Below, in pieces: positions 591 through 11,707 of a stretch of 64,000 nt of DNA; position 1 is the stretch's first letter; the number at the start of each line of letters is the position of its first letter. This DNA comes from Prevotella sp. GTDB taxonomy: Bacteria > Bacteroidota > Bacteroidia > Bacteroidales > Bacteroidaceae. Position numbers and translations under genes: made by a program. The stretch is taken from NCBI GenBank assembly GCA_017651265.1, contig JAGCDO010000039.1:46305-110304 (forward strand). Direction: 5' to 3'. The notes below the pieces were generated by a model. That model made no database searches, was not told the origin of the DNA, and saw only the letters and a list, made by a program, of their open reading frames with translations.

Positions 591-1523
591 CTAATTCTGT
601 GCGGTAAGTGAGTTCTTAATCTTATCAATCTCAATCTGTGCTACCTTGTTGTCCAGATTCAGCAGTCCGTATTCATGGTTATACTTCGTACCATTGGTAA
701 GCACCCACTGCAGGAACTGGTTCAGGGCCTCGTCACCCTCGTTGTAGCTCACTCCAATCTTCTCGATAGCCACTTCCGACACCCTGTCGTTTTCCAGGAT
801 GGCAATCAGTTCATCCAGTGTGGCCTTATCAGAGAAGTTCTCTTCGAGGTTCTTCTTTACGTCGATACCGATGATGGACAGATCGCTCTTTACATGTCGG
901 CTCTGCAAGTCGAAGATATTGGGAAGGGCGTTGAACGATACACCGAGCGGATCCTTTGCCAAGGCAGTGTTCAGGAAGAGGTCATCTCCAGAGATGCGCT
1001 TGCCGCGGAAGTTACTGCTCTCCTCACCGAAGTTATGAGCGAAAGATGAGGCTACTGATGTAGCGTTGCTACCACTGTAAATAACGAGTTGTTCAAACTG
1101 CTTGATTTTCTTTACGTCCTCGTCGAATTCGTCATCGAGGAAGAAAAGTTGCTTTAGCTTCTTCGAGTTCAGGTGCTTGCCTTCCAGCACTTTGGCAGCC
1201 TCACTACCGCTGGCTGTGATAGGCAGCACGGCGAACTCTCCAAAATAAACAATATGGCTAAAGTCTTTTGCATTACTCTCTTGATTGTCAAAAACGATAT
1301 TCAGGTCGATGCTACCCTGATTCTGATTACCTTTGGCGATCTGGAACTCTACGCCAGGTTGTGTTTTTGCATATTCTGTGATCCACTTCTCTACCAGCGG
1401 GCGGGCAAAACGTGGAGCTTTCACGTAGCGCACACTGCTCGTGTTGGTAGAATTACCCTCAGCCCAAATATGACTGATATTGATACTCAATAATACTGCT
1501 ATTGCCAATGCGATTCTTTTCAT
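591..1523 (-). CDS. Periplasmic substrate-binding protein, PstS/type-2 PBP-like
   Basis: 310 residues with a signal peptide (1-21, ending WA). The body resembles the PstS-like type 2 periplasmic binding fold seen in many Bacteroidota: an early RYVKAPRF strand, a YSGSNATS loop near the middle that resembles an anion-binding S/T-rich loop, and a C-terminal helical region. It is first in a two-gene unit with the SusC-type receptor. No ABC permease or ATPase is nearby, so it may deliver its ligand to the receptor or act as a sensor rather than in a classical Pst system. Its promoter (-7 box 1668-1676, minus) carries the same palindrome at the same spacing as the sulfur operons, so the ligand may be a sulfur oxyanion or organosulfur compound instead of phosphate (inference). 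Confidence 0.75.
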   Translation of the reverse strand: MKRIALAIAVLLSINISHIWAEGNSTNTSSVRYVKAPRFARPLVEKWITEYAKTQPGVEFQIAKGNQNQGSIDLNIVFDNQESNAKDFSHIVYFGEFAVLPITASGSEAAKVLEGKHLNSKKLKQLFFLDDEFDEDVKKIKQFEQLVIYSGSNATSVASSFAHNFGEESSNFRGKRISGDDLFLNTALAKDPLGVSFNALPNIFDLQSRHVKSDLSIIGIDVKKNLEENFSDKATLDELIAILENDRVSEVAIEKIGVSYNEGDEALNQFLQWVLTNGTKYNHEYGLLNLDNKVAQIEIDKIKNSLTAQN

Positions 1524-1667: not shown

Positions 1668-1740
1668 GCAAAGGTACGGCGATTCCGGCATACCCACAAT
1701 CCCGATGATGTGGCATTTCATATACCGCATATATGGTAGG
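1668..1740 (-). promoter_or_regulatory. Promoter plus palindromic operator of the binding-protein/SusC unit
   Basis: Minus-strand -7 box TACCTTTGC (complement of 1668-1676) with an ATTG -33 element 20 nt further upstream. A palindrome TATACC-N8-GGTAGG (1721-1740; strictly TACC/GGTA) is centred at 1730.5, exactly 54.5 bp upstream of the first T of the -7 box. Two other promoters in this window have the same element at the same distance (see 3399-3524). The predicted leader is about 140 nt. Confidence 0.75.
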
Positions 1741-1831: not shown

Positions 1832-1857
1832 TTCAATTGTCAATTATCAATTATTAT
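1832..1857. repeat. AATTGTCAATTATC-type dispersed repeat (R1)
   Basis: A short AT-rich unit alternating AATTGTCAATT and ATCAATTAT directly after the JAMM gene stop. The same unit recurs at 3089-3154, 12640-12672 and 29221-29259. Confidence 0.7.
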
Positions 1858-2255
1858 AAGTGTACTTCCTTATCTACCACCTCTCCATTCAGAATCTTGA
1901 AGGAGTTCAGTTTCGGTTCTCCGTCAAGTAGTGAGAGGATGGCGTAGCGGATGGTAGGGTCGTTAGCCAGGCGCAGGTCTTCTTGTGAAGGCCGTGATGG
2001 TGAGGCTGGATGACTGTGCCAGTTGGCGAGGATCTTCAGACCCTTGCTCCGTGCGTATCGCAATGCAGCGAACTGGTCCTTTGGCGCAAAAGAGAAATGT
2101 TCCGAAGAGTGGTCGATATTCTCCATCCAGTAGTTCTCCGTTACGATGTCGCCCTCTTCCGTGCTGGTGCCCAGTAGGTAGCCGCATGATTCATTCGGCG
2201 CATCCTTCTTTGCCTGGTCTATCAGTTCTTCTATAATATGCTGTGGTATAATCAT
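1854..2255 (-). CDS. JAMM/MPN+ (M67) metalloprotease, HcyD-like sulfur-carrier processing protease
   Basis: 133 residues, a complete single MPN domain. All zinc and catalytic residues are visible: Glu22 (NESCG), then H80-S-H82-P, Ser90 and Asp93, matching the JAMM pattern HxH-x7-S-x2-D. Bacterial stand-alone JAMM proteases of this size (QbsD, Mec, HcyD) cut residues off the C-terminus of a ubiquitin-like sulfur carrier to expose Gly-Gly. It is the last gene of a three-gene minus-strand operon behind a ThiF-like enzyme and a carrier whose Gly motif is followed by extra residues, which is the expected substrate. Assignment to homocysteine synthesis rests on the neighbouring MetY-like genes (inference). 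Confidence 0.88.
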   Translation of the reverse strand: MIIPQHIIEELIDQAKKDAPNESCGYLLGTSTEEGDIVTENYWMENIDHSSEHFSFAPKDQFAALRYARSKGLKILANWHSHPASPSRPSQEDLRLANDPTIRYAILSLLDGEPKLNSFKILNGEVVDKEVHL

Positions 2256-2281
2256 CTTTAATTCTTCAATTCTTCAACTTT

Positions 2282-3088
2282 TCAATGTTTCAAGTCACAA
2301 GCCGCCTGTTCGTAATCTATCAGGTGGTCGATGGTGGGGTTCGAACCGCAGATAGCGCACGAGTCGCGATGCTTCACCGGTACCGTACGGAACTGCATGG
2401 TCTTGGCATCGAATGTCAGCAGACGGTTGGTCAGCAGCTCACCCACACCGGTAAAATACTTCAGAGTCTCGGCAGCCTGAATCGTACCTAACATTCCTGC
2501 GATGGCTCCCAGCACACCAGCCTGACTACAGGTTGGCACCGCTCCTACGGGAGGCGGCTCCTTAAACATGCAACGGTAGCAGGCAGTACCGGGAAGATGT
2601 GTAAAGGTCTGTCCGTTGAAGCGCAGGATTCCTCCATGCGAGAACGCCTTTCCTGCCATCACGCAAGCATCGTTGATGAGGAACTTCACGGGGAAGTTGT
2701 CGGTACCGTCCACCACGAAGTCGTATTCCTTGATGATATCCAGCGCATTCGATGAGTCGAGGAACTCATAGTAGGTATCTACCTTCACATCGGGGTTGAT
2801 GGCCTTGATCTTCTCTTCGGCACTCTTCACTTTCGGAATGCCGACATCCTTTGTGAAATGGATCACCTGTCGCTGCAGGTTACTCAGATCCACCACATCT
2901 GCATCTACAATACCGATGCGCCCGATGCCTGCTGCTGCTAAGTAGAGACTCACGGGAGCTCCCAAGCCGCCAGCACCCACCACGAGCACACGCGCGTTCA
3001 TTATCTTCTCTTGTCCTTCAACACCCACATCCTGTAACAGGATATGTCGTGAGTACCGTTGTATCTGTTCTTCAGTAAAATCAATCAT
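2282..3088 (-). CDS. ThiF/MoeB/HesA-family sulfur-carrier adenylyltransferase, HcyF-like
   Basis: 268 residues from ATG at 3088; an in-frame TTG nine bases upstream lies in the repeat and was not chosen. The Rossmann ATP-binding motif GAGGLG is at 38-43, followed by the family NLQRQ segment and VDGTDNF. Two CxxC pairs (CYRC near 170, CAIC near 245) are the expected zinc site. E1-like enzymes of this type adenylate the C-terminal glycine of ThiS/MoaD-like carriers so that sulfur can be transferred to give a thiocarboxylate. It sits between the carrier and JAMM genes. MoeB for molybdopterin is the main alternative, but no moa/moe genes are here and the cluster content favours a dedicated sulfur-carrier role. 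Confidence 0.88.
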   Translation of the reverse strand: MIDFTEEQIQRYSRHILLQDVGVEGQEKIMNARVLVVGAGGLGAPVSLYLAAAGIGRIGIVDADVVDLSNLQRQVIHFTKDVGIPKVKSAEEKIKAINPDVKVDTYYEFLDSSNALDIIKEYDFVVDGTDNFPVKFLINDACVMAGKAFSHGGILRFNGQTFTHLPGTACYRCMFKEPPPVGAVPTCSQAGVLGAIAGMLGTIQAAETLKYFTGVGELLTNRLLTFDAKTMQFRTVPVKHRDSCAICGSNPTIDHLIDYEQAACDLKH

Positions 3089-3154
3089 AATTGTCAATTA
3101 TCAATTATCAATCATCAATTGTCAATTATCAATCATCAATTGTCAATTATCAAT
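3089..3154. repeat. R1 repeat cluster between carrier and ThiF genes
   Basis: Three to four units of AATTGTCAATTATCAAT with single-base variants fill the space between the two genes. The repeat supplies the last codons and stop of the carrier gene (VIDN-stop) and the bases in front of the ThiF start. Confidence 0.85.
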
Positions 3155-3364
3155 TACACTACCTCCTCCCATGAAGTAAAGGAAGTCCACCTTGTCGCCA
3201 TCTTTCAGCTGGATCGTCTCCCAGTCTTCGCGCTCAGCAAACTCCTCGTTAACCTGTACGCTGACCATGTCAGGCTGCTGTACGTCACTTTGTTTGATCA
3301 GTTCACTCACGTTGAGCGGCAGGCTCACTTCCTGCGCATCTCCGTTTACATAAATCTTTGCCAT
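3143..3364 (-). CDS. ThiS/MoaD-like ubiquitin-fold sulfur carrier with C-terminal tail, HcyS-like
   Basis: 73 residues, a normal size for a beta-grasp sulfur carrier. It ends in DFLYFMGGG (Gly66-68) followed by SVIDN. Active carriers end in Gly-Gly, so the tail must be removed; the JAMM protease two genes downstream can do this. The last four residues are encoded by the start of the R1 repeat cluster, so the tail may have arisen by repeat invasion of the stop codon. First gene of the minus-strand operon, with a promoter at 3399-3407. Predicted role: carries thiocarboxylate sulfur to a MetY-type enzyme, as known for HcyS of Wolinella (family knowledge plus inference). Confidence 0.85.
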   Translation of the reverse strand: MAKIYVNGDAQEVSLPLNVSELIKQSDVQQPDMVSVQVNEEFAEREDWETIQLKDGDKVDFLYFMGGGSVIDN

Positions 3365-3398
3365 AACTCTGTCGGTTTAATAATGAATAAATTACGGT

Positions 3399-3524
3399 GC
3401 AAAGGTACGACCATTCCGTCAGCGCTGCAATCCCATACCGATGGTAAATGGCATACCATATCATGGGTATGTAAAATGCCACAAATGGGCGATTGCCCAC
3501 ATCATGGAAACCCCATATCTTTGC
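3399..3524. promoter_or_regulatory. Divergent promoter pair with a central shared palindromic operator
   Basis: Minus -7 box TACCTTTGC (complement of 3399-3407) for the carrier operon and plus -7 box TATCTTTGC (3516-3524) for the encapsulin operon. The perfect half-sites CATACC-N8-GGTATG lie at 3452-3471, centre 3461.5, exactly 54.5 bp from the first T of both -7 boxes. Both promoters have an ATTG -33 element with a 20-nt spacer. The operator centre is about 65 bp upstream of the predicted starts, a common position for activators. Confidence 0.8.
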
Positions 3525-3548
3525 ACCCAGATATTTAAACCGACAATT

Positions 3549-4028
3549 ATGGCAGAAAACAAGAAACTGAGCATCATCGCCTTCAGTGGCGATTTTGACA
3601 AGCTCACGGCTGTATTTACATTAGGTACAGGCGCTGCAGCAGTAGGGTACGAAGTAAACATCTTCTTCACTTTCTGGGGACTGGACGCTATCAAGCGCAA
3701 GCAGGGACGTTCGTTCACCGGTGGTAATTGGCTCACGAAGATTTTCGGTTTCATGATGGGTGGTCTGAAGGTGACACCAACCAGTCGCTTCAACTTCCTG
3801 GGTGCAGGACCGAAGATTTTCCGCTATCTCATGCGTAAGAATAATGTGGCTACGTTGGAGGAACTCGTAGAGGCCGCAAAGGCATTAGGTATTAACCTGT
3901 ATGCCTGTGAGATGGCAATGCACGTGTTAGGTCTGAAAAAGGAAGACTTTATTCCTGAGGTGAAGGATGTTCTCGGCGTAGCAACGTTCCTACAGTTAAG
4001 TGAGGGTGGACAAACCTTATTTATTTAA
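3549..4028 (+). CDS. DsrE/DsrF/DrsH-like sulfurtransferase-relay protein (DsrE2-type)
   Basis: 159 residues from ATG at 3549. An in-frame ATG at 3441 would place the start upstream of the promoter and inside the operator, so it was rejected. The protein shows a DsrE2-like Rossmann-type fold with a hydrophobic TAVFTLGTGAAAVG segment and one conserved cysteine, Cys120, in LYACEMAMHVLG. DsrE-family proteins accept and pass on persulfide sulfur, often with TusA. First gene of the plus operon and 27 bp before the TusA-like gene. Probably relays sulfur between the desulfurase and the carrier (inference). Confidence 0.82.
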   Translation: MAENKKLSIIAFSGDFDKLTAVFTLGTGAAAVGYEVNIFFTFWGLDAIKRKQGRSFTGGNWLTKIFGFMMGGLKVTPTSRFNFLGAGPKIFRYLMRKNNVATLEELVEAAKALGINLYACEMAMHVLGLKKEDFIPEVKDVLGVATFLQLSEGGQTLFI

Positions 4029-4055
4029 TTATAAACTCAACATTCATCATTTTTT

Positions 4056-4280
4056 ATGGCAACAAAAGTATTGGACATCACGAAAGAGCATTGTCCAATG
4101 ACCTTCGTGAAGACAAAGATTGAGCTCTCGAAACTCAGCGAGGGCGATATTCTGGAAGTGCTGCTCGCAGAAGGCGAGCCTCTCGACAACGTGCCCCGTA
4201 ACGCCAAAGAGCAGGGTTACAACGTACTGAGTGTGGAACACGTTGAAGGCACCACACACAAAGTGACTATAAAGAAATAA
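4056..4280 (+). CDS. TusA/SirA/YedF-family sulfur-relay protein
   Basis: 74 residues with the TusA signature: Cys13-Pro14 in EHCPMTFVKTK, followed by the two-layer alpha/beta fold pattern (GDILEVLLAEGEPLDNVPRNAKEQGY). TusA proteins bind sulfur as a persulfide on this cysteine and hand it to acceptors. In E. coli the partner is the desulfurase IscS; here a desulfurase is encoded two genes downstream. The second residue of the usual CPxP motif is kept but the last proline is Thr, a common variant. About 100 bp of non-coding sequence follows before the shell gene. Confidence 0.87.
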   Translation: MATKVLDITKEHCPMTFVKTKIELSKLSEGDILEVLLAEGEPLDNVPRNAKEQGYNVLSVEHVEGTTHKVTIKK

Positions 4281-4377
4281 TAATGTATAACCTTGGAGCA
4301 GAGAAGTATTGTCCTTTAACTTCTTTGTGAGCAAAGCGAGCAGTAACTTCATCTAACTCCTTTTAACTTCTTTAAAA

Positions 4378-5817
4378 ATGGCAGATTCTAATTTACAGCG
4401 CAGTGTGACCACTGCTACCGCCAGGAAATTGGCGACCACTACCAAGACCGCCCCGCAGATGGGCAGTATCACCCCACGTTTACTCCTGAAGCTGTTGCCC
4501 TGGGTGCAGGTGTCAGGCGGCACCTTCCGTGTGAACCGCACCAAGGTGGAACTTCGTAAGAACGACCGTCTGCCCATCCAGTATGTGGATGGTGTACCCA
4601 CATTTACGGCCAAGGCCCTGAAAGCTATCCCCCTGTTCTCCGAGTTCGACGATGAGATCGTCAACCGTCTGGTGAACTCTTTCGAGGCGAAGGAGGTCGA
4701 TGTGGATAAACTCTTCGTGGAGGAGGGCAAGGACAAGCAGCGCTTCTTCATCGTTGCTTCTGGTCAGGCAGAGGTGATCAGCAAAGGTTCTCATGGCGAG
4801 GAACTACGGATAGCGCTCTTAGGCGACGGTGAGTATTTCGGTGAGGCCGATGTGCTCGACGAGCAGGAATCTACCGTGTCGGTACGTGCCGTCACCCCCA
4901 CTGTGTTCCTCGGACTGAAGCTAAAGGAGTTACTCAAGATCATCAAGGAGGTGCCCGACTTCCGTGATTCCTTCAACAAAGCTGTTGATAAGCAGCTGCG
5001 TCTGAAGGCTTCGGTGAACGACAACGGTGAGAAGCACATCGACCTGGTGAGCGGTCATGAGGAGGATAATATCATTCCCGAGACCTATATCGACTACGAG
5101 GAGAATCCGAGGGAGTACAGTCTGAACACCCTGCAGACGGTGGTACGTGTACACACCCGTGTTTCTGATCTCTATAACAATCCTTACAGTCAGTTGGAAG
5201 AGCAGCTGCGCCTCTCTATCGAGAGCATCAAGGAGCGTCAGGAGTGGGAGCTCATCAACAACAAGAAGTTCGGTCTGCTGGCAGCAGTGAATCCTGCCTA
5301 TCGTATCTCAGCACGTTACGGCTCACCCACACCCGATGATCTCGACGAACTGTTGAGTCTGGTATGGAAGGAACCTGCCTTCTTCATCGCCCATCCGCGT
5401 GCCATTGCTGCCTTTGAACGTGAGTGCACATGGCGTGGTGTACCCCCTGTTACGACCGATCTCTACGGTACGAAAGTCATTTTGTGGCGCGGCGTACCCC
5501 TGATTCCTTCTGATAAGGTAGAGGTTGAAGGTCAGTATCTCACAGGTCGTGGGGTAGGAACCACCAAGATCATCCTTGTGCGTACCGGCGAGCAGAACCA
5601 GGGAGTCATCGGTCTGCACCAGAGCGGCATCCCGGGTGAGATAGCACCATCACTCAGTGCCCGTCTGATGGGACTCGACAAGTTCGGTGTGGCAGCCTAT
5701 CTGCTCACGAAGTACTTCTCGTTGGCAGCCCTTACCGACGACGCTATCGCCGTACTGGAGAACGTTGAGGTAGGATACTATCACGACTATCAGCATCGTA
5801 ACGCTGTAGAGAAATAA
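4378..5817 (+). CDS. Family 2 encapsulin nanocompartment shell protein with cyclic-nucleotide-binding domain (2B type)
   Basis: 479 residues. The N-terminal arm (1-60; ATARKLATTTKTAPQ, ITPRLLLKLLPWV) and the C-terminal HK97-like shell domain (about 237-479; EYSLNTLQTVV, HTRVSDLYNNPYSQ, LDELLSLVWKEPAFF, LTDDAIAVLENV) match the SrpI/MmpI family. A Crp-type cNMP-binding domain is inserted at about 85-205, with the phosphate-binding cassette at 151-171 (GEYFGEADVL, then Arg170-Ala171). Presence of this domain defines family 2B, whereas desulfurase cargo is best known from 2A shells that lack it. The cargo gene follows after 56 bp that include a GC-rich hairpin. Predicted to form an icosahedral shell that encloses the desulfurase; the domain may sense a nucleotide at the shell surface (inference). 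Confidence 0.92.
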   Translation: MADSNLQRSVTTATARKLATTTKTAPQMGSITPRLLLKLLPWVQVSGGTFRVNRTKVELRKNDRLPIQYVDGVPTFTAKALKAIPLFSEFDDEIVNRLVNSFEAKEVDVDKLFVEEGKDKQRFFIVASGQAEVISKGSHGEELRIALLGDGEYFGEADVLDEQESTVSVRAVTPTVFLGLKLKELLKIIKEVPDFRDSFNKAVDKQLRLKASVNDNGEKHIDLVSGHEEDNIIPETYIDYEENPREYSLNTLQTVVRVHTRVSDLYNNPYSQLEEQLRLSIESIKERQEWELINNKKFGLLAAVNPAYRISARYGSPTPDDLDELLSLVWKEPAFFIAHPRAIAAFERECTWRGVPPVTTDLYGTKVILWRGVPLIPSDKVEVEGQYLTGRGVGTTKIILVRTGEQNQGVIGLHQSGIPGEIAPSLSARLMGLDKFGVAAYLLTKYFSLAALTDDAIAVLENVEVGYYHDYQHRNAVEK

Positions 5818-5834
5818 AAAAAGACTCCCCCCAA

Positions 5835-5855
5835 CCCCTCCCTGTGAGGGAGGGG
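5835..5855 (+). promoter_or_regulatory. Intercistronic hairpin between shell and cargo genes
   Basis: CCCCTCCCT-GTG-AGGGAGGGG is a 9-bp GC-rich stem with a 3-nt loop in the 56-bp gap. It has no T-tract. It could lower cargo expression relative to shell or protect the upstream mRNA end. It is also a repeat type common in related genomes, so the function is an inference. Confidence 0.55.
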
Positions 5856-5873
5856 AGTAAATATACGTAGTTT

Positions 5874-7481
5874 ATGATAGACATACAACAAACATTTATA
5901 CCCGACCCGGGATTAGGCTATACCCAGGCACCATCCTTCGACGGTGGTGCACTGGAGCAGCTGAGGGACCTGGCCAAGAAATATTGTCCAGAGGAATACC
6001 AGAGGGAGCGACAGGTCATCCTGCCTGACGACGAACTGCATCTGGAGGAATTGGAGGCAGGCTTCAAGGCACTGCTCAGCGGAGGGTCGCCCTTCCCTGA
6101 TCTACCTTATATTGGAGATGGGCTGCCACAATACGATGCTGCGGCACCTCATCCTGAGTCGGAAACACCTCACACGCCATCGGGTAATGTAGGAGACGGC
6201 TTCGGCATCGGCATCCCTGAAACGCAGAAGCTGCAGAAAATGCATTACGAGGAGGTGGATACCTTGAACTCGGAGCAGATCAAGAAAGACTTCCCCGTGC
6301 TCAACCAGAAGGTGAACGGTCACGACCTCGTGTGGCTCGACAACGGTGCTACGACACAGAAGCCTGTGCAGGTTATCGACAAGATTTCGGATTACTACAA
6401 AACGTATAATTCGAACATCCACCGCGGTGCCCACACGCTGGCTGCCCGCGCCACCGATGCCTACGAAGAGGCTCGCGAAAAGGTACAGCGTTTCATCAAT
6501 GCTGCTACCAGTGAGGAGATTATCTTCGTTCGTGGTACCACCGAGGGCATTAACCTCGTGGCGCAGACCTACGGTCGTCAGTTCCTTACACCTGGCGATG
6601 AGGTCATCGTCTCCGAGTTGGATCACCACGCCAACATCGTGCCCTGGCAACAGGTGTGTCACGAGAAAGGTTGTACCTTGAAGGCCATCCCCACCGATAA
6701 GAATGGCGATCTGGTCTTGTCTGAGTTTGAGCGTCTTATCACGCCCCGAACACGTTTTGTCAGCGTAGGACATGTGAACAATACCTTCGGTACCATCAAC
6801 GATGTGAAGCGTATCATCGATATCGCCCACTCGCACCATATCCCCGTACTGATTGATGGAGCACAGTCTATTGCCCATACACCTGTTGACGTACAGCAGC
6901 TCGGTGCCGACTTCTTCGTCTTTAGCGGACACAAGATCTACGGTCCTAACGGCATCGGGGTTGTTTACGGTCGTAAGGATATTCTCGACAAGATGCAGCC
7001 CTGGCAGGGTGGGGGTAATATGATCAAGGATGTAACCATCGAACGTACGGAATACAATGTGCCGCCGGCTCGTTTCGAGGCTGGTACGCCCAATGTGGCC
7101 GATGCCATCGGTCTGGGTGCCGCTTTGGATTATGTGAGTCATCTCGGTATCCGGAATATCGAGCACCATGAGCACCAGCTAACGGAGTATGCCCGAGAGC
7201 AGCTTGCCCAGATCAAGGGTCTTACGCTCATTGGTAATCCCACGAACCGCGTGTCGGTGGTGAGCTTCGTCCTCGATGGTATTCCCGTGCCTGAGACAGG
7301 AACACTGCTCGACAAGGAGGGTATCGCCGTGCGTGCCGGTCATCACTGTGCCCAGCCTGCCCTTCGTGCCCTCGGCTACGAGATGAGCGTCCGTCCTACC
7401 TTCGCTCTGTACAATACCCGAGAGGATGTGGATCGACTGGTGATAGCAATCAGGAAGATCATAGGTGATAATAAACGATGA
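5874..7481 (+). CDS. SufS-like cysteine desulfurase with N-terminal encapsulin-cargo extension
   Basis: 535 residues, about 130 longer than SufS. Residues 136-535 are a complete group II desulfurase: PLP lysine Lys354 in SGHKIYGPNG, catalytic Cys492 in RAGHHCAQP. Residues 1-130 are a Pro/Gly/Asp-rich, probably disordered extension like the targeting region of family 2 encapsulin desulfurase cargo. The reaction is cysteine to alanine plus enzyme persulfide, which TusA/DsrE-type proteins can accept. It follows the shell gene and overlaps or abuts the MetY-like gene. No sufBCD genes are nearby, so general Fe-S cluster assembly is unlikely to be its only role. Encapsulation is inferred from the extension and the gene order. 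Confidence 0.9.
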   Translation: MIDIQQTFIPDPGLGYTQAPSFDGGALEQLRDLAKKYCPEEYQRERQVILPDDELHLEELEAGFKALLSGGSPFPDLPYIGDGLPQYDAAAPHPESETPHTPSGNVGDGFGIGIPETQKLQKMHYEEVDTLNSEQIKKDFPVLNQKVNGHDLVWLDNGATTQKPVQVIDKISDYYKTYNSNIHRGAHTLAARATDAYEEAREKVQRFINAATSEEIIFVRGTTEGINLVAQTYGRQFLTPGDEVIVSELDHHANIVPWQQVCHEKGCTLKAIPTDKNGDLVLSEFERLITPRTRFVSVGHVNNTFGTINDVKRIIDIAHSHHIPVLIDGAQSIAHTPVDVQQLGADFFVFSGHKIYGPNGIGVVYGRKDILDKMQPWQGGGNMIKDVTIERTEYNVPPARFEAGTPNVADAIGLGAALDYVSHLGIRNIEHHEHQLTEYAREQLAQIKGLTLIGNPTNRVSVVSFVLDGIPVPETGTLLDKEGIAVRAGHHCAQPALRALGYEMSVRPTFALYNTREDVDRLVIAIRKIIGDNKR

Positions 7482-7491
7482 ATGTCCATTC

Positions 7492-8724
7492 ATGAAATAC
7501 GAAACAAAAGTATTAAACACAAAATACCAGAAGCCTGACGCCTATGGGGCACTGTCGATGCCTGTCTATTATACGGCAGCATTCGAGTTCCCCTCGGCCA
7601 AGGCAATGAGTGATGCCTTCTGTGGACGCACCATGGCGCCGTCGTATGCCCGCATCGCGAACCCCACGACAACCTATCTGGAAGACCGTGTGCGACAGAT
7701 TACTGGGGCTGCGAGTGTGACAGCGCTGAACACGGGCATGGCGGCTATTGCCTATGCCTTGACGGCTGTGAGTGGGGCAGGACTGAACATCGTGGCCTCG
7801 AAGCACCTTTTTGGTAATAGTGTTTCTCTGATTCGCGACACGTTGGGCAGCTTTGGCGTTGAACCGCGGTTTGCCGACTTCACAAAGCCGGAGGAGGTGG
7901 AGGCACAGATTGATGACAAGACCGCCGCGCTATTTTTCGAGATCATCACCAATCCGCAGTTGTTCGTGGCTGATATTCGTAAGCTGTCGGATATTGCCCA
8001 TCAGGCAGGTGTGCCGTTGATCGCTGATACGACCATCGTACCGTTCCCTGCTTTTCATGCCAGCGATTTCGGCGTGGATATTGAGGTGGTGTCGAGCACG
8101 AAGTACATCTCAGGTGGTGGTACAGGCTTAGGCGGTTTGCTCATCGATTATGGTAGGTTCGACTGGTCGCAGCATCCGTCACCTGCCTTGCTGGCTCGTA
8201 CCAAGAAGGTGGGGAAGAAACTGGCGTTTACCGCCCGAGTGAAAACAGAACTCATTACCAACCTTGGTAGCTTGATGACACCACAGGTGGCATATATGGA
8301 GACGCTCGGACTTGACACGCTCGATATCCGTTTCCGTCGTCAGGCAGAAACGACGCTGTGGCTGGCTCGACAGTGTCAGGAAATCCCTGAGATCAAACGG
8401 GTGAACTACACCGGACTGGAGGATAATCCTTTCTATGATCTGTCGAAGGAGCAATTCGGTCTGTTACCAGGGGCTGTGTTCACCATCGACCTCGCTTCGA
8501 AGGATGATGCCTTCACGTTCATCGATAAACTGAAGATTATCCGTCGCGCCACGAATCTCTTCGATCGTAAGTCACTGGCCATTCATCCCGCTTCGACCAT
8601 CTTCGGTCTTTTCACTGCTGAACAATGCGCCGAGATGTCTGTACCAGATACCACGGTACGTCTGAGCATCGGTCTGGAGGATGGCGAAGATTTGCTGGAG
8701 GATATCAAGCAGGCATTAGTATAA
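7492..8724 (+). CDS. Cys/Met-metabolism PLP enzyme, divergent MetY-like sulfhydrylase
   Basis: 410 residues from ATG at 7492. An in-frame GTG at 7465 would overlap the desulfurase by 17 bp and is less likely. Gamma-family PLP fold: LNTGMAAIAYAL near the PLP phosphate site, ADTTIVPFP, PLP lysine in SSTKYISGG, C-terminal LAIHPASTIFG and TVRLSIGLEDGEDL. These are MetY/O-acetylhomoserine sulfhydrylase signatures, but the sequence differs clearly from the canonical MetY at 10418-11707. As last gene of the encapsulin operon, it is the best candidate for using carrier thiocarboxylate or persulfide sulfur to make homocysteine (inference). Confidence 0.82.
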   Translation: MKYETKVLNTKYQKPDAYGALSMPVYYTAAFEFPSAKAMSDAFCGRTMAPSYARIANPTTTYLEDRVRQITGAASVTALNTGMAAIAYALTAVSGAGLNIVASKHLFGNSVSLIRDTLGSFGVEPRFADFTKPEEVEAQIDDKTAALFFEIITNPQLFVADIRKLSDIAHQAGVPLIADTTIVPFPAFHASDFGVDIEVVSSTKYISGGGTGLGGLLIDYGRFDWSQHPSPALLARTKKVGKKLAFTARVKTELITNLGSLMTPQVAYMETLGLDTLDIRFRRQAETTLWLARQCQEIPEIKRVNYTGLEDNPFYDLSKEQFGLLPGAVFTIDLASKDDAFTFIDKLKIIRRATNLFDRKSLAIHPASTIFGLFTAEQCAEMSVPDTTVRLSIGLEDGEDLLEDIKQALV

Positions 8725-8730
8725 GGTTGT

Positions 8731-8832
8731 GAAACCTATGGTTTTGGAACGCAAAACCTATGGTTTTAGACGGTAATACCTATGGTTTTGGAAGCTAAAA
8801 CCTATGCTTTTACAATGAGCATAGTTTTACAA
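8731..8832. repeat. Array of 22-bp-period palindromes (ACCTATGGTTTT type)
   Basis: Near-palindromes AAACCTATGGTTTT start (ACC) at 8734, 8756, 8778 and 8800, an exact 22-bp period, with a degenerate fifth unit near 8816-8830. Each has a ~15-bp palindromic core and a 7-bp variable spacer. It lies between the operon end and the promoter at 8872, so it could act as terminator or as a binding array. A second array with the same period but another sequence is at 63487-63602. Confidence 0.8.
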
Positions 8833-8938: not shown

Positions 8939-9649
8939 ATGAAAGAAAAGATTGTTTTAGTAACTGGTGCCAACAAAGGTATCGGTTTTGGAATTGCCAA
9001 ATACCTCGGAAAGAGTGGTTGGCAGGTAATTATCGGTGCACGCGACGGACAGCGAGCCGAGAAAGCTATAGGTGAGCTGAAGTCAGCTGGTGTTGACGTG
9101 TTGGGTTGGGTGAATATCGAGTTGCGCGACCTTGACAATATCGAGAAGGCCGCCAAGGAAATCAATGAGAAATACCCAAAGCTGTCACTGTTGGTGAACA
9201 ATGCGGGTATTCCCGGTGATATGAGTGTGGACAGTCTGCACACAGAGATCAGCGATATCAAGGAGACGCTCAACGTGAACTTCATTGGTACCTTTGCCCT
9301 TACCAAGGTGCTGATGCCGTTGCTTACCAAGAACGAAGGTCGCATTGTCAATGTGACGGTTCCCTCAGAGATCAGTCCTTACTGGCATCCGTTGGCTTAT
9401 GTTGCCAGTAAGGCAGCGCAGAATGCGATGGTGGGTGTGATGGCTATCGAGTTCCAGCAGAGCAACACCCCGCTGGAGATCTTCACCGTACATCCCGGAC
9501 CCACAACCACCGATTTGAACGGTAATATGGCACTGCCCGGTTTCCACGATATAGAAACCGTAGGACAGAAGATGGCCGAGCTCATCAACGATGGTCAGAA
9601 CCACCAGGGCGAGTTCATTGAACTCTATCCGATTGTAAAAGAGGATTAG
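8939..9649 (+). CDS. Short-chain dehydrogenase/reductase (carbonyl-reductase-like)
   Basis: 236 residues from ATG at 8939, chosen over an upstream in-frame ATG at 8897 because the Rossmann strand starts right after it. The NAD(P) motif GANKGIGFG is at the N-terminus, NNAGIPG in the middle, and the active-site YVASK (Tyr-x3-Lys) is present. The sequence resembles classical SDRs annotated as carbonyl reductases. It has its own promoter, and its end overlaps the convergent response-regulator gene by 4 bp. Substrate unknown; nothing ties it to the sulfur operon beyond position. Confidence 0.8.
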   Translation: MKEKIVLVTGANKGIGFGIAKYLGKSGWQVIIGARDGQRAEKAIGELKSAGVDVLGWVNIELRDLDNIEKAAKEINEKYPKLSLLVNNAGIPGDMSVDSLHTEISDIKETLNVNFIGTFALTKVLMPLLTKNEGRIVNVTVPSEISPYWHPLAYVASKAAQNAMVGVMAIEFQQSNTPLEIFTVHPGPTTTDLNGNMALPGFHDIETVGQKMAELINDGQNHQGEFIELYPIVKED

Positions 9650-10287
9650 ATATAAAACTCTGAAGGATCGATCAACCCCGCACGAAGTGCATACTTTACC
9701 GCTTCGTGCGCTGTGTTTATACCCAGTTTGCGGAAGATGTTCTTTCGATGGGTGGTAATGGTGTGGATACTTGAGAAACGCTCAGCAGCAATCTCTTTGG
9801 TAGTCTTACCCTGCGCAATCGCCTTCACGATCTCCGTCTCGGTCTGCGTGAGCAGGTCGGGCTTTTCCTCTTCTTGTTGCTGGGTAATGATAGCCTCGAG
9901 GGCACGCTGACTGAGGTAGCGGGTGTGGTTCCCCACTGCTTGAAGCGCTTCGCGGATCTCACTCATAGGACCGTCTTTGAAGGCAACGCTGAACTGATGG
10001 GACGAGTAAACCACACGACGGATGAATTGGGGAGTCAGTTCATCACTGATGAGAAGCCAGTCAGACAGGTTAAACCGCTCGGCAATAATCAGAAGCTGAT
10101 CCTCGTCAGCGAAGTCGAACAACGTATAGTCGAGTAGTACCGCAGCACTCTCATGCTCCCTGAGCAGGTCAACAAGTCCTGACCTGTCAAAAGCACGATA
10201 GATCACGTTCTCTTCATCTTTCCGAAGAAGACTCTCCAGTGCGAATCGCGTCAGTTCCTGGTTGTCGGCGATGATATACTTTCTCAT
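9646..10287 (-). CDS. LuxR-family DNA-binding response regulator
   Basis: 213 residues from ATG at 10287; an in-frame start at 10341 lies upstream of the promoter-like box and was not used. The receiver domain (1-120) has Asp8 and the probable phosphoacceptor Asp53 in AVLLDYTLF. The C-terminal LuxR helix-turn-helix is clear (LTQTETEIVKAIAQGKTTKEI and KNIFRKLGINTAHEAVKYAL). No histidine kinase lies beside it, so it is an orphan regulator. A box close to TAnnTTTGC (TACCTTCGC, complement of 10304-10312) gives a very short leader. Targets unknown. Confidence 0.85.
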   Translation of the reverse strand: MRKYIIADNQELTRFALESLLRKDEENVIYRAFDRSGLVDLLREHESAAVLLDYTLFDFADEDQLLIIAERFNLSDWLLISDELTPQFIRRVVYSSHQFSVAFKDGPMSEIREALQAVGNHTRYLSQRALEAIITQQQEEEKPDLLTQTETEIVKAIAQGKTTKEIAAERFSSIHTITTHRKNIFRKLGINTAHEAVKYALRAGLIDPSEFYI

Positions 10288-10376
10288 ATGGGACGTTTTG
10301 GGTGCGAAGGTACGAAAATTCAGGTAATCTGCCAAATCCAATGCGAACTTTGACAGATTACCCTTGTTATTCTTAA

Positions 10377-10430
10377 TTTTTCAACTTCAATTCTTAAATT
10401 CTTGAATTCTTCAATTCTTAAATCTTCTCC
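10377..10430. repeat. TTCAATTCTTAAATTCTT-type dispersed repeat (R6)
   Basis: Low-complexity units of TTCAATTCTT with variants between the response regulator and metY. A shorter copy lies at 2256-2286 and another at 44885-44910. Confidence 0.6.
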
Positions 10431-11707
10431 AGCGCCTGTGCCAGGTCGTCGATGATATCATCAATGTGCTCTGTACCGATACTCAGACGGATGGTTGACG
10501 GTGTGATATGCTGCTCGGCCAGTTCCTCGGGAGAGAGCTGTGAGTGAGTGGTGGTGTAGGGGTGGATCACCAGACTCTTCACGTCGGCCACGTTAGCCAG
10601 CAGTGAGAAGATCTGCAGTGCATCGATGAACTTCCATGCCTCTTCTTGACCGCCCTTGATCTCGAAGGTGAAGATGCTACCGGCACCGTTGGGGAAGTAT
10701 TTCTTGTAAAGCTGATGGTCGCGATGACTCTCCAGAGCGGGGTGGTTCACCTTAGCCACCTTGGGGTGTTTGGCAAGGAAATCCACAACCTTCAGTGCGT
10801 TCTCCACATGACGCTCCACACGCAGGCTCAGTGTCTCGACACCCTGCAAGAGGATGAAGGCGTTGAAAGGAGAGATGGCAGCACCGGTATCACGCAGGAT
10901 GACGGCACGGATACGGGTAACGTAAGCGGCAGCACCTACTGCGTCGGCAAACACGATACCATGGTACGATGGATCGGGCTTTGCCAAGGTGGGGAACTTA
11001 TCGGGATTAGCCTTCCAGTCGAACTTACCACCGTCAACGATGACACCACCCAGTGAGGAGCCATGACCGCCCAGGAACTTTGTGGCAGAGTGAACCACGA
11101 TGTCTGCTCCATGCTCCAACGGTCTAATTAAATAAGGTGTACCGAACGTGTTGTCCACGATAAACGGAATACCGTGCTTGTGAGCCACTGCTGCTACGCC
11201 TTCGAGGTCGAGCACGTCAGAGTTCGGATTACCGAAAGTCTCTGCATACACCACCTTCGTGTTAGGTTTGATGGCAGCCTCGAGTGCTTCGAGGTCGTTG
11301 ACATTGATGATGGTATTGCTGATACCCTGCGTACTCAGCGTATGGGTAATCAGGTTGTAGGAACCGCCATAGAGGTTGTCGGCTGCAACGATATGATCAC
11401 CAGCCTGTACAATGTTCTGCAGGGCATAGGTGATGGCAGCTGCACCAGAGGCAACAGCCAGACCGGCCACGCCACCCTCAAGGGCAGCCACGCGATCCTC
11501 GAACACTCCCTGGGTAGAGTTGGTCAGACGACCGTAGATATTACCTGCATCACGAAGTCCGAAACGGTCGGCTGCATGCTGGGAGTTATGGAATACATAA
11601 CTGGTGGTTTGGTAAATGGGCACCGCACGGGCATCGGTAGCGGGGTCAGCCTGCTCTTGGCCTACATGGAGTTGCAGTGTCTCAAAACGATAATTCTTCT
11701 TACTCAT
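10418..11707 (-). CDS. metY: O-acetylhomoserine sulfhydrylase MetY
   Basis: 429 residues, the usual MetY length. Strong family motifs: ETLQLHVGQEQADPATDARAVPIYQTTS at the start (quoted in parts: LHVGQEQADP, PIYQTTSYVF), ASGAAAITYAL, VDNTFGTPYLIRP, PLP lysine in HSATKFLGGHG, and TTHSQLSPEEL near the end. It makes homocysteine from O-acetylhomoserine and sulfide, or from carrier-bound sulfur in thiocarboxylate systems. It lies 1.7 kb from the MetY-like paralogue with its own promoter (complement of 11757-11765) that lacks the CATACC palindrome. The cell therefore has two related enzymes, perhaps for free sulfide and for protein-bound sulfur. Confidence 0.95.
   Translation of the reverse strand: MSKKNYRFETLQLHVGQEQADPATDARAVPIYQTTSYVFHNSQHAADRFGLRDAGNIYGRLTNSTQGVFEDRVAALEGGVAGLAVASGAAAITYALQNIVQAGDHIVAADNLYGGSYNLITHTLSTQGISNTIINVNDLEALEAAIKPNTKVVYAETFGNPNSDVLDLEGVAAVAHKHGIPFIVDNTFGTPYLIRPLEHGADIVVHSATKFLGGHGSSLGGVIVDGGKFDWKANPDKFPTLAKPDPSYHGIVFADAVGAAAYVTRIRAVILRDTGAAISPFNAFILLQGVETLSLRVERHVENALKVVDFLAKHPKVAKVNHPALESHRDHQLYKKYFPNGAGSIFTFEIKGGQEEAWKFIDALQIFSLLANVADVKSLVIHPYTTTHSQLSPEELAEQHITPSTIRLSIGTEHIDDIIDDLAQALEKI

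Follow-up and report, generated by a model that had tools for sequence, protein, structure and literature searches.

A gene cluster joining a family 2B encapsulin and cysteine desulfurase to a tailed, ubiquitin-like sulfur-carrier set in Prevotella, with a possible role in protein-thiocarboxylate sulfur assimilation

The cluster described here comprises eight genes (positions 1854–8724) in a 64,000-nucleotide stretch of DNA from Prevotella sp. (assembly GCA_017651265.1, contig JAGCDO010000039.1, positions 46,305–110,304 of the forward strand; the whole stretch is called the window below). In this cluster, genes for a JAMM protease, an E1-like enzyme and a tailed sulfur carrier are divergent from genes for DsrE2, TusA, an encapsulin shell, a cysteine desulfurase (CD) and a MetY-like enzyme, with a conserved operator between the two sets. 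The linkage of these genes, their conserved order and co-occurrence, the carrier tails, the invariant catalytic residues and the shared operator are direct observations; the genes, their union and their shared control are well supported. The cluster is best read as a known carrier pathway whose source of sulfur is new and compartmentalised. More specifically, the cluster would be a sulfur-assimilation regulon in which the encapsulated CD supplies a protein-thiocarboxylate pathway, a proposal that we regard as evenly poised between right and wrong. The features of the cluster are as follows.

1854–2255, minus strand: JAMM metalloprotease, HcyD-like (Prok-JAB, 87.9 bits; best PDB sequence match 2KKS)
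2282–3088, minus strand: E1-like adenylyltransferase, ThiF/MoeB- and HcyF-like (Pfam ThiF, 270 bits)
3143–3364, minus strand: ThiS-like beta-grasp sulfur carrier (ThiS, 49 bits; C-terminal end FLYFMGGG-SVIDN)
3365–3548, no strand: divergent promoter/operator region, a 184-bp spacer between the two divergent gene sets
3549–4028, plus strand: DsrE2-like sulfurtransferase (DrsE_2, 138.9 bits)
4056–4280, plus strand: TusA sulfur-relay protein (TusA, 71.8 bits)
4378–5817, plus strand: family 2B encapsulin shell with an inserted cNMP-like domain (SrpI-like, 374 bits; NF041163, 561.5 bits)
5874–7481, plus strand: SufS-type CD (SufS, 557 bits, cut-off 475) with an N-terminal cargo-like extension of ~130 amino acids
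7492–8724, plus strand: MetY-like pyridoxal phosphate (PLP) enzyme of the 3RI6 clade (Pfam, 283 bits; best PDB match 3RI6)

We infer each transfer step, the thiocarboxylate, the direction of sulfur flow and the product from this gene set, and propose the following route: (i) the SufS-type CD inside the family 2B shell would take sulfur from cysteine, (ii) DsrE2 would collect persulfide sulfur at the shell and hand it to TusA, (iii) the JAMM protease would cut the carrier back to Gly-Gly-Gly and the E1 would adenylate it, (iv) TusA, or a cysteine of the E1, would give the sulfur for the carrier thiocarboxylate, and (v) the MetY-like enzyme would use the carrier thiocarboxylate and an O-acylhomoserine to form homocysteine, the JAMM protease possibly also releasing the product.

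The host genome is 3.16 Mb in size and 94% complete. A previous reading of the window, made from its letters and open reading frames (the sequence-only reading), described eight genes in two divergent operons; the open-reading-frame list and translations place all eight where that reading had them, with intact frames, and the Pfam and NCBIfam matches confirm what they are.

Two collections were searched for similar loci: (i) 150 genomes of the same genus (labels G), with neighbourhoods read in 31 fetched stretches, and (ii) named loci (labels L), the best 80 of the 545 found with a shell alignment. The two collections overlap, apparently through shared metagenome-assembled genomes (MAGs), and their counts are not independent. 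The shell exceeds its cut-off in 27 of the 150 genomes, and the JAMM protease is found in 37. Genomes with both, shell only, JAMM only and neither number 24/3/13/110 (p 2e-15; this Fisher test and the next ignore the relatedness of the genomes). Shell fragments lie in three further genomes (G142, G083 and G121, the last at a contig end); with the G121 fragment and the contig-edge cases included, the table becomes 27/3/12/108 (p 3e-17). A carrier set occurs somewhere in 27 of the 30 shell genomes, counting fragments together with G072 and G086, whose contigs end inside the carrier set.

The order DsrE2-TusA-shell-CD is constant wherever the contig covers these genes (31 stretches). Carrier, E1 and JAMM are placed divergently upstream (as in the window), collinearly after the CD gene, or after the MetY-like gene. 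Among the named loci, a CD gene is present in 80/80 and DsrE2 in 77/80 (L099 and L149 begin at the shell; L170 is without DsrE2); a carrier lies near the shell in 64/80, in five arrangements, and a gene for the MetY-like enzyme or for MetYv, its sister lineage within the 3RI6 clade, in 70/80. In 11 of the 80 the JAMM gene is located between those of TusA and the shell, within a single same-strand run; these interleaved loci come from Salinivirgaceae, Paludibacteraceae, Prevotellaceae and other Bacteroidota MAGs. The nearest named relatives of the window shell are Prevotella MAGs (96%).

Since the two gene sets co-occur across genomes and are interleaved on one strand in these 11 loci, their linkage is not due to chance, a conclusion that is well supported. 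The sequence-only reading had made its case depend on co-occurrence across Bacteroidales and had proposed that an encapsulin set was joined to a tailed-carrier set; such joined sets are indeed found in many Bacteroidales, under a shared operator. Shell and carrier set also occur together in Prevotella sp. khp7 (L120, window-type) and Xylanibacter ruminicola D31d (L125), two records that carry no MAG label. We take these for cultured strains, in which case the question is open to experiment.

The encapsulin assigned to family 2 in the sequence-only reading belongs there, and can be refined to family 2B: the shell scores best against the 2B model (cut-off 400 bits), passes the 2A model with a lower score (424 bits, cut-off 380), and carries the cNMP_binding domain characteristic of 2B sequences (53.8 bits, cut-off 27.5). 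Its best PDB sequence matches are 9bje (E 1.9e-114), which bears the name of a Crp/Fnr regulator in its deposition and which we take for a 2B shell, and SrpI (6x8m). Classical binding of a cyclic nucleotide by the inserted domain is doubtful, because the position that usually holds the phosphate-binding Arg reads Ser in every shell in which the motif was found (3 Bacteroidales, 3 Chlorobi-type and 6 2A-like rows gave no such motif).

The adjoining CD has the features expected of a shell cargo: it is of SufS type, with the catalytic Cys, an N-terminal extension (in which a block near residues 107–121 is conserved) and a gene next to that of the shell. It falls short of the family 2 encapsulin cargo model NF041166 (718 bits, cut-off 800), aligning with model positions 214–623 only, and the extension is shorter. 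The CD is very probably enclosed by the family 2B shell. A CD has been shown to be encapsulin cargo in S. elongatus (accessible part of PMC8049743), and CD encapsulins are cited as sulfur storage in the available portion of PMC12407261.

A different arrangement is seen in loci L192–L206, labelled Chlorobi-type from their gene content. These read CysK-(SAT)-shell-CD, and about half of the 16 fetched lie near ThiS and E1 genes, the order being thiSGHF where it was read (L194, L206). In these genomes the desulfurase linked to the shell may supply sulfur to another beta-grasp carrier.

Across the aligned rows, the cysteines proposed for the relay (in CD, DsrE2, TusA and E1) are conserved. Among distinct orthologues of expected length (truncated or odd-length rows were left out of all residue counts), CD C492 is present in 94/94, the single Cys of DsrE2 (C120) in 91/91 and TusA C13 in 84/84, and seven Cys of the E1 are invariant in 87/87. 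DsrE2 is closely tied to the shell: orthologues of at least 77% identity occur in 32 of the 150 genomes; 30 of these also hold a shell or a fragment of one, and the other two end at contig edges. DsrE-like domains set inside open frames of ~720–870 amino acids, 36–43% identical to the window DsrE2, were found in a further search result covering 13 genomes (e.g., G060, G108), all but one of which gave no shell match.

A second candidate source of sulfur emerges from relatives without a shell. Sulfite reductase was found in 13 of the 150 genomes, all 13 of which also encode the JAMM protease; seven are shell-less and six have the shell too. No DsrE2 orthologue was found in the seven sulfite-reductase-only genomes, where two weak matches (37 and 39%) were obtained. 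In four shell-less loci (L075, L077, L079, L082), carrier, E1 and JAMM are followed by a frame of ~800 amino acids in which a sulfite reductase domain (NIR_SIR) is fused to a C-terminal TusA (both domains by Pfam in L079; in the others by a TusA match and the positions of the NIR_SIR match), and sulfate-activation genes are close by. NIR_SIR was not found in the host genome.

Because all 13 sulfite-reductase genomes have the JAMM gene and the carrier set adjoins the NIR_SIR-TusA frame in these four loci, one and the same carrier appears to have two alternative sources, shell/CD/DsrE2/TusA and sulfite reductase-TusA. The same adjacency makes the shell branch look like a replacement for reduced sulfate, based on cysteine or on stored sulfur. 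On the simplest reading, the carrier would be served by TusA in either setting, and DsrE2 would be an adaptor specific to the shell; that DsrE2 and TusA feed the carrier is somewhat more likely than not. Tentatively, and with somewhat less confidence than in an even chance, we propose that the encapsulin could be a cysteine-fed sulfur depot with a dedicated outlet, the ubiquitin-like thiocarboxylate carrier, replacing sulfite reductase where sulfate cannot be reduced.

Two points of interest emerge from the carriers. Firstly, the Bacteroidales carriers (103 loci, 93 distinct proteins) all continue for 1–40 residues beyond FMGGG; none stops at the motif, and 49 different tails were counted. By comparison, nine short ThiS frames from Chlorobi-type loci end exactly at FAGGG (0/9 with a tail; tails longer than about six residues would have escaped the search). 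No JAMM gene was found in the Chlorobi-type loci with untailed ThiS, one of which (L195) is without an E1 match in its stretch. Secondly, JAMM residues E22, H80, H82, S90 and D93 are invariant in 91 distinct orthologues. An invariant Gly motif with a freely varying tail behind it is the pattern that removal of the tail by a protease would produce, and the JAMM protein very probably trims the carrier to Gly-Gly-Gly. Processing of the carrier, as the sequence-only reading had it, is therefore well supported by the comparison of tails (93/93 vs 0/9).

The window carrier has a predicted ThiS fold (best structural match 3CWI from Geobacter, TMq 0.80), and its sequence match 2K5P likewise reads FLYFMGGG followed by further residues. 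Could it be the ThiS or MoaD of thiamin or molybdopterin synthesis, or a protein tag? With 60.9 bits it exceeds the cut-off of the NCBIfam thiS model (37), and the host genome has no other ThiS/MoaD-family (PF02597) match; the genome also gives a ThiG match (34.5 bits, Pfam cut-off 23). However, the ThiG match covers 67 of 247 positions only, and the same search also matches in all 14 control genomes, making it nonspecific or, at best, equivocal. Further, a ThiS beside thiGHF has neither tail nor JAMM, and the Pfam and NCBIfam scans of the cluster proteins reported no E2-like family. The window carrier combines residues after the Gly motif with a JAMM partner, as HcyS-type carriers do, rather than ending at the motif like the ThiS of thiamin synthesis. 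A role in thiamin, molybdopterin or tagging is accordingly highly improbable.

The MetY-like enzyme best matches PDB entry 3RI6 (E 5e-103; next best 2.6e-75) and groups with it in a tree with support of 100/100, as a MetY of the Wolinella-type HcyS/F/D-MetY pathway should. We take 3RI6 to be the Wolinella MetY, the enzyme of the carrier pathway in that organism. The motif SSTKYxS (SSTKYIS in the window) is present in all 91 MetY-like and MetYv rows; the 37 other family rows have SATK, SLTK or STTK, mostly with GGH. Window-type MetY-like enzymes (at least 79% identity) occur in 21 of the 150 genomes, of which 20 have a shell or JAMM gene and one (G013) places the enzyme at a contig edge.

The two divergent gene sets share an operator, as had been claimed from the window. 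Its core, GGTATNNNAAATGCCACANNNNNGNGATTG, lies at 3466–3495 in the 184-bp spacer, overlapping an imperfect inverted repeat, GCATACC-N8-GGTATGT (3451–3457/3466–3472); TAnnTTTG boxes, which we take to be Bacteroidetes -7 boxes, stand at 3400–3407 (minus strand) and 3516–3523 (plus strand). Related loci provided 42 divergent spacers, 34 of them distinct and shorter than 320 bp. The 30-bp core is kept in 32 of these 34 (up to 3 mismatches) and a shorter core in 34/34 (up to 2). The full core occurs twice in the window (expected 0.00), the second exact match being at 1697–1726 (minus strand), before a PstS-like gene. In the host genome it is found at four places with up to 3 mismatches (0 for a reversed-pattern control): the divergent spacer, the PstS-like gene at 591–1523, a second PstS-like gene, and the spacer between an SDF-family symporter gene and cysK. 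The shorter core, at up to 2 mismatches (0.47 chance matches expected in the window alone), gave 164 matches in 168 stretches: 40 before DsrE2, 28 before CysK, 15 before PstS-like genes (including that of the window), 19 before other query genes and 62 before none of these; several of the 62 are one recurrent sequence. From the genes that it precedes, the operator set looks like a small cysteine/sulfur regulon. Three further genes of the window lie outside the cluster.

591–1523, minus strand: gene for a secreted, PstS-like protein that shares the operator of the cluster (weak PstS similarity, 15 bits)
9646–10341, minus strand: LuxR-type regulator gene (GerE, 52.6 bits)
10418–11707, minus strand: second, canonical MetY gene, outside the eight-gene cluster

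The LuxR-type gene is a candidate for encoding the regulator that acts on the operator; homologues occur in the fetched DNA of 33/80 named loci and 12/16 Chlorobi-type loci. The PstS-like proteins may possibly take up a sulfur compound; the predicted structure of the window protein (pLDDT 51) is too poor to use. A TonB-type receptor gene apparently lies beside the PstS-like gene at 591–1523 (L234 is also listed for this observation). The second PstS-like gene (24% identical), under its own operator match, is followed by genes for an M14 peptidase and a SusC-type receptor.

The recurrence of CysK raises the alternative that the carrier makes cysteine with a linked CysK, as in a CysO/CysM-like route, the JAMM protease releasing cysteine from the carrier. 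A CysK-like gene is present in 33/80 named loci and stands behind an operator-like core in the 28 matches above, and a JAMM protease is needed in the Mycobacterium CysO route. Against this, the two CysK tested, from L035 and from the operator-linked host gene, are cysteine synthase A (TIGR01139, 457 and 449 bits, cut-off 351) and miss the cysM model (292 and 316 of 394 bits); the window locus has no cysK, that of the host being ~20 kb away; and cysteine synthesis with sulfur taken from cysteine would be futile. We regard this alternative as very unlikely. A CysM-type route was itself rejected, both tested CysK being ordinary cysK equivalogs.

Several observations weigh against an encapsulated CD as the source of sulfur for the carrier and homocysteine as its product. 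Shells without a detected carrier set occur in G022, G083 and G121 (completeness 81–84%), and 16/80 named loci are without a nearby carrier, several being cut by contig ends. Some carrier-less shell loci have full flanks (e.g., L109, L124 of Segatella baroniae B14, L151, L152; the flanks only were searched), and L170 has shell and CD with neither DsrE2 nor carrier. The carrier set does not adjoin the shell in G052, G129 and G134. Five JAMM genomes have neither shell nor sulfite reductase (G020, G033, G095, G105, G103). In the first four the carrier set runs to the contig end, with DsrE2 at the edge in G095 and G105; in G103 the first set is at a contig end, and a second is followed by 7.5 kb free of DsrE2 and shell genes. 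The Chlorobi-type shell-CD operon lies near thiSGHF instead, and knockout of the S. elongatus family 2A encapsulin gave no growth defect, according to the available part of PMC8049743.

Such loci would be expected if the carrier set and shell-CD, the latter storing sulfur or supplying Fe-S clusters, were two independent modules with common sulfur-limitation control only, an arrangement to which the carrier sets of the seven sulfite-reductase-only genomes and the differing arrangements around the shell also point. Conversely, the interleaved same-strand runs, the shell-tied DsrE2 and the TusA partner in both contexts speak for a functional connection, and we consider independence unlikely.

Further counterpoints concern the last enzyme. 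Relatives of it at 54–63% identity occur in at least 22 of the 150 genomes; one (G052) groups with the MetY-like enzyme in the tree. At least 13 of the 22 MetYv-bearing genomes are without JAMM and shell; MetYv counts over the 150 genomes are lower bounds, at least one MetYv found by tblastn (G007/L039) having been missed. In 8/8 carrier-less loci inspected (L219–L224, L226, L227), the MetYv gene adjoins one for a PatB-type C-S lyase homologue (67–77%), likely providing a cystathionine route to homocysteine in these genomes, and carrier-less MetYv rows intermix in the tree with shell-linked ones. Membership of the clade was hence rejected as proof of carrier use. Since the host also encodes the canonical MetY, the MetY-like protein need not be its homocysteine enzyme.

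The MetY-like protein could thus act independently of the carrier, as an O-acylhomoserine sulfhydrylase or cystathionine gamma-synthase on free sulfide or cysteine, leaving the carrier to serve another product. In line with this, it reaches no NCBIfam cut-off among the matches listed, and a PatB homologue is present in 6 of 111 shell stretches searched (L032, L035, L100, L153, L155, L160). On the other hand, no PatB-like frame adjoins the window gene among the open reading frames of the window, all but the contig-edge case of the 21 window-type genomes have a shell or JAMM gene, and the nearest solved relative is an enzyme that we take to belong to the Wolinella pathway. Carrier-independent action is fairly unlikely. 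Of the role in a carrier pathway assigned to this enzyme by the sequence-only reading, the grouping with 3RI6 stands, and its use as evidence of carrier dependence does not. We slightly favour use of the carrier by the MetY-like enzyme. Homocysteine is, by a similarly small measure, the likely product; this end of the route is less certain because the MetYv sister lineage is also found in carrier-less genomes beside a C-S lyase.

Krishnamoorthy and Begley are said to have described, in 2011, the HcyS/HcyF/HcyD/MetY homocysteine pathway of Wolinella succinogenes. The present cluster resembles that system in its tailed ThiS-like carrier, an E1 in which the Pfam/NCBIfam scan reported no rhodanese domain, the JAMM protease and the grouping of MetY with 3RI6 (HcyS/F/D being likened by description). 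It differs in its source, here apparently an encapsulated CD with DsrE2/TusA, and in a host without a sulfite reductase match. The Wolinella protein-thiocarboxylate homocysteine pathway is cited in the accessible text of PMC5764234. A carrier, JAB, rhodanese-less E1, SirA and O-acetylhomoserine sulfhydrylase in sulfate-assimilation operons were listed by Iyer et al. 2006 (PMC1779556, table row 4e; Wsuc and Gmet are among the organisms in the part of the paper at hand). The cluster shares carrier, JAMM, rhodanese-less E1, TusA (SirA) and MetY with that row, and the four shell-less Prevotella-group loci with the sulfite reductase-TusA fusion also resemble it. In contrast, encapsulin, CD and DsrE2 are not among the neighbourhoods described in the available text of that paper, and the host, having no NIR_SIR, lacks the sulfate-reduction genes of these operons.

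The shell-CD pair is like the family 2 CD encapsulins of PMC8049743 and PMC8346489, as described in the accessible parts of both: an HK97-type shell gene beside that of a SufS-type CD with an N-terminal extension, sometimes with SAT near. Andreas and Giessen 2021 (PMC8346489) count 199 family 2B operons with CD; the accessories named in the part of the paper available are SAT and rhodanese, unlike the DsrE2, TusA and carrier set found here, and a dedicated rhodanese is only hypothesised as the sulfur acceptor. The words TusA, ThiF and thiocarboxylate are absent from its main text. The Chlorobi-type loci share shell-CD and, in several, a nearby beta-grasp carrier and E1, and differ in their untailed ThiS and the presence of thiGH; JAMM, DsrE2 and TusA were not found there.

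In the literature searched, no paper joins an encapsulin with TusA, DsrE or a thiocarboxylate carrier, most subscription papers being outside the search. If the proposed route is correct, this would be, to our knowledge, the first thiocarboxylate pathway with a compartmentalised sulfur source. Desulfurase encapsulins are widespread, and their sulfur acceptor and benefit are unsettled; the locus names a specific chain of acceptors and a possible product for their sulfur, and may bear on the holding and recycling of sulfur by rumen and gut Prevotella.

A final observation concerns the DNA downstream of the cluster: repeats of AAACCTATGGTTTT with 22-bp spacing occupy 8729–8812, with the MetY-like gene on one side and an SDR gene on the other, and are a possible regulator site.

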